Shown piece after piece: positions 1-6,590 of a DNA stretch of 64,000 bases. Position 1 is the stretch's first letter, and each line of letters starts with the position of its first letter. The notes below the pieces were generated by a model. It was not told the origin of the DNA and did not search any database. It worked only from the letters and a program-made list of their open reading frames with translations. The DNA is from Chloropicon primus (lineage: Eukaryota; Chlorophyta; Chloropicophyceae; Chloropicales; Chloropicaceae). A program made the position numbers and the translations under genes. Location: assembly GCA_023205875.1 (NCBI GenBank), contig CP060763.1, positions 682,001 to 746,000 of the forward strand. Direction: 5' to 3'.

Positions 1-2169
1 TCCAGCTGCCACCAGGCTCAACCCGGCTTCTGTTTCCTTGAAGCACAGCACGGGCAAAGGCGCATGGTGGATGGGCGCGTAAAGCGAGAACGTGCAGCTC
101 TCTCCGGAGCGCATGAACTTCTGGTTCTTGTGCTTGTCCACGTTTGGCGCGCTGTCTGAGATGATGGGCCGCCCTCTGAACATTCGAATCCCGGTGTAGA
201 ACACGAGGTCATCCTTGTTCGCGAGGGGCTCTTCGTACGAGGAGGACTTGTGCACCGCGAAATTCACCATAGACATCTTGGTCTCGTGCTGCAGGAGCCC
301 GAAGATGACGTAAGGAGTGGAGCCCCGAGACCCCTGGAAGGCTTCCAGCAAGGCCTCGGCCTTTTCTGGCGGAATTCCAGTGAAAACAAGCTTAACGTGC
401 TCCCCCTTTGTGACCAGATCCGGCCTCCTGCTCGCGAACCCCGCCGCAGGCGCCCTAAGCTTGGCCTTTGCCTGCTTCTGAGCTTTGACCGGGTTCTCGA
501 AGGCGTATATCTTGGCATACTCCATCGGCAGGCTCTCCTTGGGATCCCAAGGAGACGTTCTGAAACTTTTCAGGCCCCTGTACTTCAAGAACCTCTCCCT
601 GGCCGGCTTGTCCAGGGGGACCTCCACCTCATCAGGGAACTCCAGGTCCTCGTTCTCGGCATCCTTCCTCGACTTCCTCTCTCTCTCGTAGTTGTCGACA
701 TAGTCATCCATGTTCTCGTACTCGTCCTCTTCCTCGCCGACATCCCCTTCGTCCTCCGACATGATCTCGATCTCCCCGTGGTGATCCCCAAGATTGTCCG
801 CGGGGTGCTTGAAATGGCTCGCACCCGGGTCGTTTCCCTCGTCCTCTTCGTCGGTCGTGTCCTCGAACTCCATCTCGTCCGAGAAATCGTCGTCCTCCTC
901 GTCGATCCAAGCGGACTGGTACTCGCTGAAGCCCTTTGGGACGCTCCTTGACGAAAGCCTGTGAGTCTTGGTGGCCTGCAGCTGCATCTCCTCCGCCTCC
1001 CGCATCTCCTCCTCTGTCGGCCAGGTCTGCTCGCCAGCCAAGGGGTCGGGAACGTTCTCCCTCGCCAAGCTCTCCAGCTGGGACTTGTCCGCAACCACCA
1101 GAGTCTTGGTGTCCTCGTCCATCAGGGACGCGCCTTCCGCCTTTCCCTTTTTCCTTGCCTTGGTGAAAGGGTCGTCTTCCTGGTCGATCCTTTCTACGTG
1201 GTACTCTCCTATCCCAGGAAGCAAAAACGCCTGGTTTGCGGACAAGTTTTGGCCCCTGACGTACCCGGTGAGAGACACTCGGACCTGGTTTCCGTTAGGG
1301 AAAACCTCGCAACCTTCGGTGATCAAGTAAGGCCTCTGCTTCCTCCACACGGGAACGATCTGCTTGTGCTCCTTGAGCATTCTGAAGAGGTGCAGGCAGT
1401 CCTGGTTCGAGTCCAGGGGCAAGCAGTTCACGCTATCCCTGACCTGCTCGGTGAAGACTTTTGTGGCTCTCTTCTTCTCTCTCGCCTTCTCCGAGAGCCC
1501 GAGCCCCGCCATGCCCTGCACGCAGCAATACACGTTCGGCAAGCTGAACGCCCGGAGCGCCTCGCACATCGAGAGCGCGAGGGGGTCCATCACCTCCGCC
1601 TCCTCTTCCTTCCCGCTGCCACCTGCCTTGGTCACAAACAGCACGATGTCCGCTATCTTAATGTAGTCCAGGAGCCTGATGAGGGTGGCAGACCGGAGGG
1701 CTCCGCGCTCCGAAGCCCTCTGGAACGGGGGCAAGATCCTCACCCGGACTTTGACGTCAGGAACGCAGAAGGTCTCCTCCCCCGAGTGCTCCACTTTGGT
1801 GCCCATGAAAGCATCCCCGTTGTTGTCCTCCATCCTTGCTCCCACGGTGGCGGCCGTCCTCAGGAGCTCGTGAGCCTCCTCCAGGTTCACTTGGTCGGTG
1901 CATGGTATAATCGCGATCACCTTGGGCGGTCCGTGTGTCGACAACCTCTTCTCCCTCAGGGTCTTCTCCCTCAACTTTTCGCGGTGACTCTTCGCGGCCT
2001 GCAGCCTCGCCCTCCTCGTTCCCTGCACGTTGCTGCCATGCCTGTTGGCCGTGTTTTGTTTTATCCCCATCCGCCTCGGGGCCTCATCGTTGTTCCTGTG
2101 TCTCTTCCTCCCGCCCTTGTGAACCTTGTGCGTCTGGCCCGCTTGCCCTGCACCTCCGTGGCGAGCCAT
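1..2169 (-). CDS. TSR1: Pre-rRNA-processing protein TSR1 (3' part cut by window edge)
   Basis: Tsr1 is a GTPase-like but GTP-independent assembly factor of the 40S ribosomal subunit, acting in nucleolus and cytoplasm. An uninterrupted frame of 723 codons starts at the ATG at 2169 and runs off the left edge. Family proteins are about 790-800 residues, so roughly the last 70-90 are missing. Visible marks are a basic N-terminus with ANRHGSNVQGTRR at residues 41-53, a Bms1/Tsr1-type segment SLTGYVRGQ near 300, an acidic stretch near 410-480, and the Tsr1 signatures EFPDEVEVP near 510 and KSFRTSPWDPKESLP near 536. No intron is seen. The 5' spacer (2170-2545) carries direct repeats. Residues 41-73 recur almost unchanged in the neighbouring TIC20 gene. 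Identity is from recalled family motifs and is strong. Confidence 0.93.
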   Translation of the reverse strand, partial: MARHGGAGQAGQTHKVHKGGRKRHRNNDEAPRRMGIKQNTANRHGSNVQGTRRARLQAAKSHREKLREKTLREKRLSTHGPPKVIAIIPCTDQVNLEEAHELLRTAATVGARMEDNNGDAFMGTKVEHSGEETFCVPDVKVRVRILPPFQRASERGALRSATLIRLLDYIKIADIVLFVTKAGGSGKEEEAEVMDPLALSMCEALRAFSLPNVYCCVQGMAGLGLSEKAREKKRATKVFTEQVRDSVNCLPLDSNQDCLHLFRMLKEHKQIVPVWRKQRPYLITEGCEVFPNGNQVRVSLTGYVRGQNLSANQAFLLPGIGEYHVERIDQEDDPFTKARKKGKAEGASLMDEDTKTLVVADKSQLESLARENVPDPLAGEQTWPTEEEMREAEEMQLQATKTHRLSSRSVPKGFSEYQSAWIDEEDDDFSDEMEFEDTTDEEDEGNDPGASHFKHPADNLGDHHGEIEIMSEDEGDVGEEEDEYENMDDYVDNYERERKSRKDAENEDLEFPDEVEVPLDKPARERFLKYRGLKSFRTSPWDPKESLPMEYAKIYAFENPVKAQKQAKAKLRAPAAGFASRRPDLVTKGEHVKLVFTGIPPEKAEALLEAFQGSRGSTPYVIFGLLQHETKMSMVNFAVHKSSSYEEPLANKDDLVFYTGIRMFRGRPIISDSAPNVDKHKNQKFMRSGESCTFSLYAPIHHAPLPVLCFKETEAGLSLVAAG
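1951..2050. repeat. Source copy of a 100-bp segment shared by TSR1 and TIC20
   Basis: This 100-bp stretch, coding TSR1 residues 41-73, matches 3195-3294 with four mismatches by eye, in the same orientation and reading frame. It is conserved in sequence among TSR1 proteins, so this copy is presumably the donor. Confidence 0.95.
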
Positions 2170-2545
2170 CGTGAACGAAAACTGGCGGCTCCTCTCTCTT
2201 CTCTGCAGATCGGATCGGGATCGAGAGGAGGAGGAGGGAGGAAAGGAGAGGAGAGAGGAGGGGGATGACTTTGATGGGAAGGGGAAGAGGGGAGGGTTTG
2301 ATCTTGGTCCCTGGCGGATCCAACGCTGGTCTGCTGATCTCCTTCTTGACCCCCCCTGCCTGCCTGGAGAGAGAAGAGGAGAGAGGAGGGGGATGATGAA
2401 TGGATGGATGGGAAGGAGTGTGGAGTGGAGGGTTGGGACACGGTGGATCGAGAAGGGTTTGATCTTGGTCCCTGGCGGATCCAACGCTGCTGGGCTTGGT
2501 GGGAAGGGTCTGAGGGTTGAAACATGCACACGGCGGATTCATGGA
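2170..2545. repeat. TSR1 upstream spacer with nested direct repeats
   Basis: A perfect 36-bp direct repeat lies at 2293-2328 and 2454-2489. A second purine-rich repeat of about 20 bp (core GAGAGGAGGGGGATGA) occurs near 2256-2278 and 2377-2397. The spacer must hold the TSR1 promoter and the TIC20 3' end. I see no gene in it. Confidence 0.85.
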
Positions 2546-3446
2546 TTACATGACTTGCCTGTCTGCCGCGTCCGCGACTCCGGGCAGTCTTGCTTGCTCC
2601 CCCGCTAGACTCGCGGCGACGCCGTACAGGAAGCAGACCGCCACGTACAAGAACACGAAGTTGTAACTCGTGATGAGGAACTGCAGGTAGGCTCCAGATT
2701 TCGGGACGTCCCGAAGCAAAAAGTTTTCGAGCAGGCTGGGAACTGAAGAGAGTCGACACGGCAGAACGAACGAAGAATCAATGCAAGTCAGCCTCCCACT
2801 CGTGCCATCATGGGAGAGAGAGCGCACACGTACCTATGAGCAAAATGTCCAGGAGAATGGTTTGCATCGCCTGGAACCTAATGAAGCGCGAGAAGTTGTA
2901 GTTCTGTACAATCCCGTAGTACAGCCCGAAGAAGACGACCAAGGAGGCGAACGGCAAGGTGTAGTACGCCTTGATGAGTGGCTGAAGCGGTGCAAGGAGG
3001 ACGTACGCCTGGGGGAACTCCATGAAAAAGAATTTGCCATAGCGCAGTCCGTCAAGAAGAGGGAGGAGGTAAGGGACGCACGCAATGATGCGGTCCCCGA
3101 AATCGGGCTTGGCCTGCGCAACGACGCCCCCTCGCTTCCTCGGCGACGAGCCGATGCCACCTGCCCCTGAGCCACCTCCACAAAAAAAGCTTGACTCCCT
3201 CAGGGTCCTCTCTCTCAACTTCTCGCGGTGACTCTTCGCGGCCTGCAGCCTCGTCCTCCTCGTTCCCTGCACGTTGCTGCCATGCCTGTTGGCCCTCCCC
3301 AAATGTACCAAGTTCCCCGGCCTCGCAGGGAGCGCCGCCTTCGCCCTGACGATTCCTGCAGCTCCCCTCTTCCGCTCGCCCCTCCCTTGGCCCCTCCTGG
3401 CCGTCCCGAGGGACCTCGTCCTCGACACAGGGGACACAGACTCCAT
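2546..3446 (-). CDS. TIC20: Tic20-family plastid inner-envelope import protein
   Basis: Tic20 is a four-helix channel component of the plastid inner-envelope translocon. Two exons, 3446-2834 and 2742-2546, are joined by a 91-bp GTACG...CAG intron; the product is 269 residues. The core from about residue 118 (DRIIACVPYLLPLLDGLRYG) through the LLDILLIVPSLLENFL segment across the splice to the C-terminal helix matches the family. Residues 1-115 are Arg/Ser/Gly-rich and look like a transit peptide without a signal peptide. Residues 52-84 of that presequence are a near copy of TSR1 residues 41-73. The only in-frame Met before the core is at 3446, so translation should pass through the captured piece, unless an unseen intron removes it. 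Confidence 0.9.
3195..3294. repeat. TSR1-derived 100-bp segment inside the TIC20 presequence
   Basis: Compared with 1951-2050 there are four differences. Two are synonymous and two change residues (Ala to Thr, Lys to Arg). The frame is kept, giving ANRHGSNVQGTRRTRLQAAK and the following 13 residues inside the TIC20 N-terminus. Confidence 0.95.
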
Positions 3447-3564: not shown

Positions 3565-5940
3565 TTAGAATTTGATGTTGTTAGATTTGATGGCCACGCT
3601 GATCTCCTCCAGGATGGTCGTGATAGCGTTGTAGTTTTCTGTGATCTCAAACTCGGGAGCTGCCTTTGGAGTCGGAGGTGCGGGAAGGGAGTGAAACATC
3701 TCCAGCTGAGAGGTCAATTCCTTGAGCTCTTGGTTGGACTGCTGAATCTCCTGCATCATCCTCATCTTCTTTTGGTCTTGATCGGACTCCGCCATTTTCT
3801 TCCTTTCCTCCTGCGTCGTTTTCAAAGGCTCCGCAGCTCGGCGCTCCTGCTTCTCCTCCGCGACCACCGCAACCGGACCCTTCTCCTGCGGCTGGTCCGA
3901 AGAAGCCAGAGCCTTCCTCAGCAGCTGGCAGCCAGGGAATCGCAAGATCTTGTACTTGAGCAAGTCCTTGGGCTCCTCCGCCTCCAAGGGCTGGTAGCCC
4001 TTGTGCTGCCAGAACTCCTTGATCTCCCCGAGCGCGGGCAGCACGAGGTGCGACACCCCCAGCTCCCTCAAGTGGCTCTCCAGCTCCCTCATCGTGCGCG
4101 TCGAGTACCCCTTGCCCCTGTGGGCGAACGGAACGGCAATGAAGGGCATCTCGCAGAAACGAGAACCCAGTATGCGGACCGTGGCGACACAGAGGACCTC
4201 CGCCTCCGAGCTGACGAGGGCGAAGCACACGAAGCCGCTGAAGTCGTGCAGCCCGCAGCTCTTCCCCCTGACGATCAGGGGGAGGAGGTTCTTCTGCGTC
4301 CTCGCGTCTTTCATGGGCAAGAAACACTCGGAAATCACGTTGGCGCACCTCCTCAGCAGTTTCCTTTTCAACTCCATCTCCTCCGTGGTCCTCTTCACCT
4401 TCCTGTCCTCGCGGTTGTCCAAGAACATGGTGAGGTGCTCCTCCCCACCCAAGCTTGTGGTGGCCCTCATCACCCTCGTTTGACCCGTTCGGCACAAGGA
4501 AGCCACCTTGTCGCTGAGGTCCTTGCACTCCTTGCCGCAGAACCAGTCCCCCTTGGGCAGCTGCTTCATGTCCTTGTCCACGCAGCCCGCGTGGAACTCC
4601 CTCTGGCACTGGTCGCAGATCATCATGGTGTGGGGGTCCAGCCTCGTCTTCCCGAAGCTTGACACGCCGTGGCCGTACAGGGCGCCCCCGGTGTGGCTGG
4701 GCTCCCCGGGCTTGACGTCTTGCGCCCCCGGCGCCGTATGACCGCCCGCCCCCCCCACGAGGAGCGGGTCGGTCGAGTTCACGTGAGACTTTTGGCACAC
4801 GCAGCACCTGCAGGACGGGCAGAACCAGTCGCCCTCGGGGATCGAATCCAAGCCGACGCACTTTATGTGGAAAGCCCCCGGGCAACCCTCGCAGCAGATG
4901 AGCTCTCCCCCATCGCAGCAGACCCTGCACAAGTCGTCGTTCCAATCCAAAGTCATCTGCATGTGGCTGACGGGCCTCGAGAGGCACTCGAACTGCCTCC
5001 TCTTGTAGCTGGGCTTCCTGTTCCTCTTGCCCAGGACGACGTTCGTGGGTGGGTTCGTGGGGTGGGAGGCCACCACGCTCGCGGCTCCCGAGGAGCTCGC
5101 CGCCGTCGCCGACCCACCCCTGGCGGGGGGCTGGCCCTCCAGCAGAAGGCTCAGCGCCATCAGGTTGCTCCCGTCCGCCTTGTACATGTGGTAGCACGGC
5201 TTCTTCGCGCCACTCCCCGCGTTCTTCTCAAATTTTTGGTCGTTGACGTACTTGCTCGTCTTCGCGCAGAGGATCAGGCCGGACTGGCCGTCGACCTTCC
5301 CGACGTTCAGGACCTCGAAGTTGGACCTGGAGCGGTAGAAGACCACCTCCCCGTCCTTCAGGGCGCCGGCCTTGATCAGCCGAGTGAACCTGGAGTTCAC
5401 CATGGGCACCCTCGGCTTCTTGGGTTGCTTGCCCAGCAGCAGCGCGCCCCCGAGGATCCCCCCGGAGCCGTTCGCCAGCGAGGTCGAGGGAGCTCCGCTG
5501 GCGGGCCCCCTCGACGACGGTCCCCTCCCCTCCTCCGTCAGCTTCACCTTCTTCGTGGTGCCGTTCCCCAGGTTGCTCGTCAGGTGGTCCGTCTTCGTCG
5601 CCGCGAGCACGACCCCGTCCCCGATGCAGTTCCCCTCCCTGTCCCTCTTGGTCTTGATCGTCCCGTTCTGCCTCTTGAGCGTGGCCTCGTGGTCGCAGCA
5701 CGACGCCTCCACCAACGTCCCCCGCTTCGTCACACGCATGACCTTCCTCTCCCCACTACTCGTGTTTTTGTTTTTGTTTTTGTTGTTGTTTCGGTCCTTC
5801 TCCTTCTCCTTCTCCTTCTCCTTCTCCTTCTCCTTCTCCTCCGCCTCCCGCCCCAGCGTCCCTCCCCCCTCCTCCACGCGCATCGCCATGGCCTCCTCCG
5901 CTCTGCACTGAGGGGACCCCTTCGTTCTCGCGCTCCGCAT
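3565..5940 (-). CDS. PHD-finger / GNAT chromatin regulator, IDM1-like
   Basis: A 791-residue intronless protein with the layout of plant IDM1/ROS4-type nuclear regulators. It has an N-terminal (EK)n and NNNKNKNKN low-complexity stretch (about 33-60), a TDBD-like domain (about 186-265, with FEKNAGSGAKKPCYHMY), a first PHD finger (about 337-377, CRVCCDGGELICCEGCPGAFH), a second Cys-rich PHD-like segment (about 378-473) and a GNAT acetyltransferase fold (about 565-670) with the acetyl-CoA loop AHRGKGYS. The C-terminus (700-791) is charged and probably coiled. In plants such proteins acetylate histone H3 and counter DNA methylation; that role here is inferred. The start is the first ATG at 5940; a second in-frame ATG lies 17 codons on. 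Confidence 0.85.
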   Translation of the reverse strand: MRSARTKGSPQCRAEEAMAMRVEEGGGTLGREAEEKEKEKEKEKEKEKDRNNNKNKNKNTSSGERKVMRVTKRGTLVEASCCDHEATLKRQNGTIKTKRDREGNCIGDGVVLAATKTDHLTSNLGNGTTKKVKLTEEGRGPSSRGPASGAPSTSLANGSGGILGGALLLGKQPKKPRVPMVNSRFTRLIKAGALKDGEVVFYRSRSNFEVLNVGKVDGQSGLILCAKTSKYVNDQKFEKNAGSGAKKPCYHMYKADGSNLMALSLLLEGQPPARGGSATAASSSGAASVVASHPTNPPTNVVLGKRNRKPSYKRRQFECLSRPVSHMQMTLDWNDDLCRVCCDGGELICCEGCPGAFHIKCVGLDSIPEGDWFCPSCRCCVCQKSHVNSTDPLLVGGAGGHTAPGAQDVKPGEPSHTGGALYGHGVSSFGKTRLDPHTMMICDQCQREFHAGCVDKDMKQLPKGDWFCGKECKDLSDKVASLCRTGQTRVMRATTSLGGEEHLTMFLDNREDRKVKRTTEEMELKRKLLRRCANVISECFLPMKDARTQKNLLPLIVRGKSCGLHDFSGFVCFALVSSEAEVLCVATVRILGSRFCEMPFIAVPFAHRGKGYSTRTMRELESHLRELGVSHLVLPALGEIKEFWQHKGYQPLEAEEPKDLLKYKILRFPGCQLLRKALASSDQPQEKGPVAVVAEEKQERRAAEPLKTTQEERKKMAESDQDQKKMRMMQEIQQSNQELKELTSQLEMFHSLPAPPTPKAAPEFEITENYNAITTILEEISVAIKSNNIKF

Positions 5941-6590
5941 CTGGTGATTTCAGACCCTAGGAGAATGAACGTGATGGGGAGAATTCCTGACGAATCTCTA
6001 GGAGAACGAACGTCACGAAGAGATGATTCAAAACGAGCCCTGGCGCCAAGGGGAAAACCGGAGCGGGGCCAAGGCGACGCCTTGGAGGAAGGGAGGAGAC
6101 CACCTTGGCTTGGCTTGGCTTGGGGACGAGGAAGAGGAAGAGGAAGAGGAAGACAACTGCCTTGGACCAAAGGAGGGGAGAAGGAGACACCAACACCAAC
6201 GAAGGACAGGGAGTCACGGGGGTGCCTTTTGGGGTGGGGTTGGGGTTGTTTGGAGGGGGAAGGAGGCCTGGCTTGAGAGGAGAGGAGAGGGGAGGGGAGG
6301 CACAACAGGAGGAGGGACGACGGGACTGGAATCGTGAGTGAGTGAGTGGTTTTTTTTTGTTGTTTCTGGTGGATTGATTCGAACGAGAGAGAGGAAGGCT
6401 GAGTCCCAGGGAAGAAGAAGAGTTCGTCCTCCTTGCGGAGGGGCAACGGGCTGAGGATCTTGGTTTTTGTGTCGCCACCACCGCCTCGGAGGGAAACGGT
6501 GGCAAAGAGGGGCTCGCTCCAGCGCGCTCCAGCTTGCTCGGCGTGAGCTTTTCCGAAGGAAGTGAAGAGGAAGAGGACGACGCGGACCAG
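5941..6590. other. Divergent spacer between PHD/GNAT gene and TPT-family gene
   Basis: About 650 bp with purine-rich runs (GAGGAAGAGGAAGAGG near 6129-6150) and a T run near 6351. It should hold two divergent promoters. No gene is seen. Confidence 0.6.

Follow-up and report, generated by a model that had tools for sequence, protein, structure and literature searches.

The window analysed here comprises 64,000 bases of the Chloropicon primus genome (C10:682001-746000). It contains, near its start, TSR1 and an adjoining TIC20-family gene, both read from the reverse strand (Table 1). The neighbouring gene (3565-5949, reverse strand) codes for a protein that has a PHD finger, a C-terminal IDM1 domain and a run of KE repeats, the last encoded by a hexamer array near 5797-5840.

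Table 1. Features of the TSR1/TIC20-family locus, with positions in the window
Feature	Position	Strand	Basis
TSR1 (pre-rRNA processing); start codon at 2169, 3' end outside the window	1-2169	-	Domains and homology
Donor copy within TSR1, a ribosome-biogenesis factor: codons 41-73, a basic N-terminal stretch	1951-2050	-	Repeat and genome searches, TSR1 alignments
Exon 2 of the TIC20-family gene, including the stop codon	2546-2742	-	Comparison with relatives
Predicted intron of the TIC20-family gene, 91 bp, GTACGT...CAG	2743-2833	-	Gene model, comparison with relatives
Exon 1 of the TIC20-family gene, coding for the presequence (residues 1-112) and the beginning of the Tic20 domain	2834-3446	-	Self-trained gene model, domain search
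Recipient copy within the TIC20-family gene: codons 52-84, 96/100 bases identical	3195-3294	-	Repeat and genome searches
5-bp direct repeat flanking the insert: GGGAG immediately upstream, found again as its last five bases (3195-3199)	3295-3299	-	Junction comparison

The TSR1 protein scored above the cut-off for PF04950 and PF08142, and below its cut-off for PF22298. It matched human TSR1 (chain 6g18_u) with an E-value of 3.4e-78, with only weak likeness across the stretch under study.

The second gene belongs to the Tic20 family, with PF16166 on residues 111-204 of its protein (82.5 bits against a Pfam gathering cut-off of 28.6); this domain is shared with TIC20 in the solved structures (7xzi chain B, 7vcf chain W and 8z9y chain B). 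The initial annotation had called the gene TIC20. The family assignment holds, but the genome has a second PF16166 gene (L026, C7:449356-449808), which is far closer to the TIC20 of the Chlamydomonas translocon (7xzi_B; 83 bits versus 36 for the full protein from the window). On 8z9y_B (TIC 20-I), the full protein from the window was slightly closer, at 42.7 bits versus 36.2. Its E-values were 5.8e-10 for 8z9y_B and 6.3e-8 for 7xzi_B. We use the name TIC20-family gene because the two structures favour different genes of the genome, either of which may be the core translocon subunit. A search with exon 1 alone had suggested that the gene in the window was not the core TIC20; this reading was dropped, as the full protein outscores the C7 gene on 8z9y_B. 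Both genes fell far short of the NCBIfam TIGR00994 cut-off of 341.15, with 35.6 bits for exon 1 of the gene in the window and 45.1 for the C7 gene. The N-terminal part of the C7 protein is glycine-rich. A literature search returned no published Tic20-II/Tic20-V phylogeny. The plastid location of the protein from the window is predicted from its family and presequence.

Removal of the predicted intron yields the sequence found in relatives, LLDILLI-VPSL, with the junction at the hyphen. Apparent read-through of an intron was seen at the C. primus position in the relative P0012 and approximately eleven residues later in P0013, which suggests that the intron position differs among TIC20 relatives.

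The repeat and its donor

The two copies are 100 nt long, lie on the same strand and are spaced 1,244 bp from start to start. The repeat covers whole codons of both genes in a common frame. The four differences are all transitions (in TSR1 numbering, A54T, K69R and synonymous changes at E64 and R67), and they leave identical runs of 40 and 31 bases. The borders are sharp, with adjacent bases differing immediately on both sides. A DNA search of the whole genome (17,584,162 bases in 20 contigs, simple repeats skipped) matched the two copies alone, with E-values of 5.7e-46 and 1.5e-40. No third copy or repeat family was found in the genome by this search or by a six-frame protein search up to an E-value of 10. 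Chance similarity is ruled out by the E-values, since both genome searches return just these two places. Recomputation and the genome-wide search thus bear out the repeat as first described, with four mismatches, two of them synonymous, in the same strand and frame.

The direction of copying was determined by comparison with relatives, as the initial annotation had proposed for the TIC20 N-termini. The stretch aligns in all five green TSR1 proteins (local alignment z of 11-28), one of which, P0089, is presumably a second C. primus sequence. It was absent from the N-termini of all 80 testable TIC20-family relatives, with a best z of 2.8; a relative was considered testable with at least 20 N-terminal residues, and seven of the 87 (P0002-P0088) were too short. 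As the stretch is present in 5/5 green TSR1 proteins and in 0/80 testable TIC20 relatives, TSR1 is the donor on these alignments. The proposal that a segment of TSR1 was duplicated locally and in frame into the N-terminal extension of the adjoining gene is therefore supported.

The presequence of the TIC20-family protein

Presequence length was measured in 12 relatives (P0002 to P0014, minus P0005, which is without its N-terminus), with K/R-P-D/E-x-G-D-R as the domain start. The number of residues before the domain was 85-104 in six relatives and 40-73 in the other six, although several of these sequences, taken as reading frames from short metagenome contigs, may be incomplete. The stretch was present in none of them. 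The C. primus presequence is comprised of 112 residues with the stretch, and 79 without it. An alanine or serine directly precedes the domain start in 10 of the 12 relatives. The residues before KPDFGD in C. primus are VVAQA, and the relatives have VVTKA, VARA and LVPRA. These endings, partly like that of C. primus, are consistent with one processing site.

Because the relatives carry presequences without the stretch, the copy entered a pre-existing presequence and lengthened it. The duplication had been proposed to supply the presequence and to offer a snapshot of one being made. Neither claim survives the comparison, since the presequence predates the insertion and C. primus would keep 79 residues without the copy. 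Exon shuffling would likewise involve a presequence that was absent before the event, whereas the 12 measured relatives have 40-104 residues without the stretch. A plastid-targeted donor is also unexpected, as the donor is, by domains and homology, the ribosome-biogenesis factor TSR1.

The stretch had been characterised as basic and acid-poor. It is basic, with 10 lysine or arginine residues in 33. It is not acid-poor, since it holds three acidic residues in 33, as against two in the remaining 79 residues, and thus three of the five in the presequence.

Age of the copy and alternative readings

The average nucleotide identity is 99.91% between two C. primus strains (0.09% apart) and 77.88% between C. 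primus and C. roscoffensis (approximately 22% apart), according to PMC12301720. The divergence of four in 100 between the copies is approximately 44-fold that between the strains, and approximately 12-fold at the lower 95% Poisson bound (1.1 per 100); the estimate is based on 100 bp, and gene conversion would make the event look younger. The insert is therefore not a population-level novelty. If substitutions are clock-like, the copying would long predate the divergence of the two sequenced strains but postdate that of the species. The earlier view of the copy as young thus applies relative to other species, but on the same clock the event would predate the two-strain split.

The stretch is very probably retained in the mRNA of the TIC20-family gene. 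The self-trained gene model keeps exon 1 as a single exon, with the intron placed downstream of it. As the model fused the TIC20-family gene and TSR1 via two introns taken as spurious, only its calls of exon 1 and of the 2743-2833 intron were used. Downstream of residue 1, the first in-frame ATG encodes M142, which lies within the Tic20 domain, so a start beyond the stretch would cost the first part of the domain. The database protein P0001 (212 aa) contains the stretch; however, it also reads through the predicted intron and is thus no proof of the mRNA. C. primus RCC138 has few introns, reported as 0.54 per gene in PMC12301720. Splice sites were evaluated with the gene model and a strict filter, which replaced simple scoring that had yielded four introns and then a large set with apparent antisense contamination. 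The strict set comprised 18 calls, of which one was an artefact without GT and one was the TIC20-family intron itself; 11 of its 17 GT donors were GTRAG. The alternative that the stretch is part of an intron, and so absent from the protein, is unlikely. Several in-frame GT...AG pairs span it, and with the broad splice model 3350 to 3107 (71st percentile) and 3350 to 3113 (60th) rate as ordinary, with 3350 to 3017 at the 82nd percentile. The residues that follow the stretch (85-112) also have no codon bias (-4.6 bits, with +14.5 for residues 1-51 and +17.0 for the stretch). Against this, eight GT sites lie between the start codon and the stretch, and the GTRAG form is seen in none; the highest-scoring one, GTCAGGGC at 3350, was outscored by 13 of the 17 strict-set donors. 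The single exon of the gene model and the preserved TSR1 frame also argue for retention, as does, weakly, the resemblance to relatives just before KPDFGD.

Within a retained exon, the stretch could have been recruited as basic sequence that contributes to import as part of the plastid transit peptide. This is quite unlikely, and it is more doubtful still that the stretch, recruited by one local copying event, now alters the site or efficiency of delivery of the protein. If so, presequences could grow via in-frame patches of neighbouring coding DNA. Its favour lies in the frame, the basic composition, the position inside the presequence and the lack of a stop codon after four substitutions. PMC12531127 also mentions that plastid presequences in Chlamydomonas may need to be longer in general. 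However, the testable relatives manage without the stretch, and it carries most of the acidic residues of the presequence. In addition, it lies at residues 52-84, whereas the reporter variants described in PMC12531127 were altered in the first 20 residues, and the Chlamydomonas version failed to reach the plastid. A different history, in which an older duplication was kept alike via gene conversion between the two genes, is highly improbable. The 96% identity and the two long identical runs could be read in this way, as could residue 46 of TSR1, which is asparagine in P0089 and serine in both copies in the window. P0089 and the TSR1 from the window differ at three positions over 723 residues, and one mutation in one strain accounts for S46N. 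Moreover, no older copy was seen in the 80 testable relatives, and the four differences persist. A length of 100 bp is short for efficient gene conversion. Conversion, raised as an option in the initial annotation, is neither demonstrated nor required.

Templated insertion as the favoured explanation

The probable explanation, and the one we favour, is that a templated break-repair patch entered the pre-existing presequence, where it would be retained in the precursor, cleaved and near-neutral. The donor is intact, the copy is short and its borders are sharp, as in a templated insertion. The GGGAG repeat flanks the insert; a match of at least 5 bp occurred in 0.27% of 100,000 random pairs of site and donor, although GGGAG was picked out post hoc. 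No matching bases were seen in the three remaining comparisons of the junctions. The coding part upstream is 152 bp, so that removing all 100 bp would break the frame, and since the shared 100 bp are not a multiple of three, the net in-frame insertion is 99 bp or another multiple of three. The probable figure is 99 bp, a single base being shared at the 5' border.

In the proposed sequence of events, approximately 100 bp of TSR1 coding DNA would have been copied into exon 1 of the adjoining gene while a break was repaired or DNA replicated in the C. primus lineage, the donor lying approximately 1.1 kb downstream in the direction of transcription. The patch would have closed via the 5-bp microhomology GGGAG. 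The net insertion would have kept the frame at a site between the N-terminal part of the presequence and the sequence just before KPDFGD, where a basic, loosely constrained sequence may be tolerated. The part of the precursor that precedes the Tic20 domain would thereby have grown from approximately 79 to 112 residues. Most likely, the stretch is translated and then lost when the presequence is cleaved off, and function would be little affected.

Comparable events have been described in rice. In the review PMC7407515, break repair involves template switches with 2-5 bp, and the insertions of 10-1000 bp include short duplications from ectopic donors. The C. primus patch resembles these duplications in its short length, intact donor, sharp borders and possible junction microhomology. 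It differs in that coding DNA was copied into coding DNA with preservation of the frame, and in distance: the donor lies approximately 1.1 kb away, whereas the nearby non-tandem donors described in the review lie within 200 bp of the break. A further parallel is provided by PMC8018952, in which the presequence of a presumed plastid protein also took up DNA from another nuclear gene. The donor in that case was already plastid-targeted and contributed a working transit peptide, whereas the C. primus donor acts in ribosome biogenesis and its copy entered a presequence that was already present.

The copy has the look of a minor DNA-repair accident rather than of a new targeting signal arising. A known process, seen here in a small and well-defined case, happened by chance on a presequence. 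Its donor is known, its age can be bounded against the strain and species splits, and the insert occupies a region of the plastid precursor under loose constraint. The locus is a clean natural example of a presequence that tolerates an in-frame patch and lengthens, and does not illustrate presequence origin. A literature search on presequence origin, exon shuffling, acquisition from neighbouring genes and coding insertion into transit peptides, the last judged by title, returned no such case, although one may exist in print.

A self-comparison of 256 kb around the repeat gave 29 pairs, six of them more than 1 kb apart. Among these six, the TSR1/TIC20-family pair alone exceeds 83% identity, and the other five have 72-82%. 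It is also the only pair more than 1 kb apart among the seven of 60-400 nt with at least 88% identity. As the self-comparison holds one such pair, near-identical non-tandem copies are rare within the 256 kb. The longest local repeat of 60-400 nt in this region is a near-tandem 387-bp repeat with 98% identity (C10:526522-527412). The spacer between the TIC20-family gene and TSR1 is itself partially duplicated, at 2241-2268/2369-2396 (28 bp, 93%, offset 128 bp) and at 2293-2328/2454-2489 (36 bp, 100%, offset 161 bp); other local duplications have therefore occurred in the neighbourhood of the repeat.
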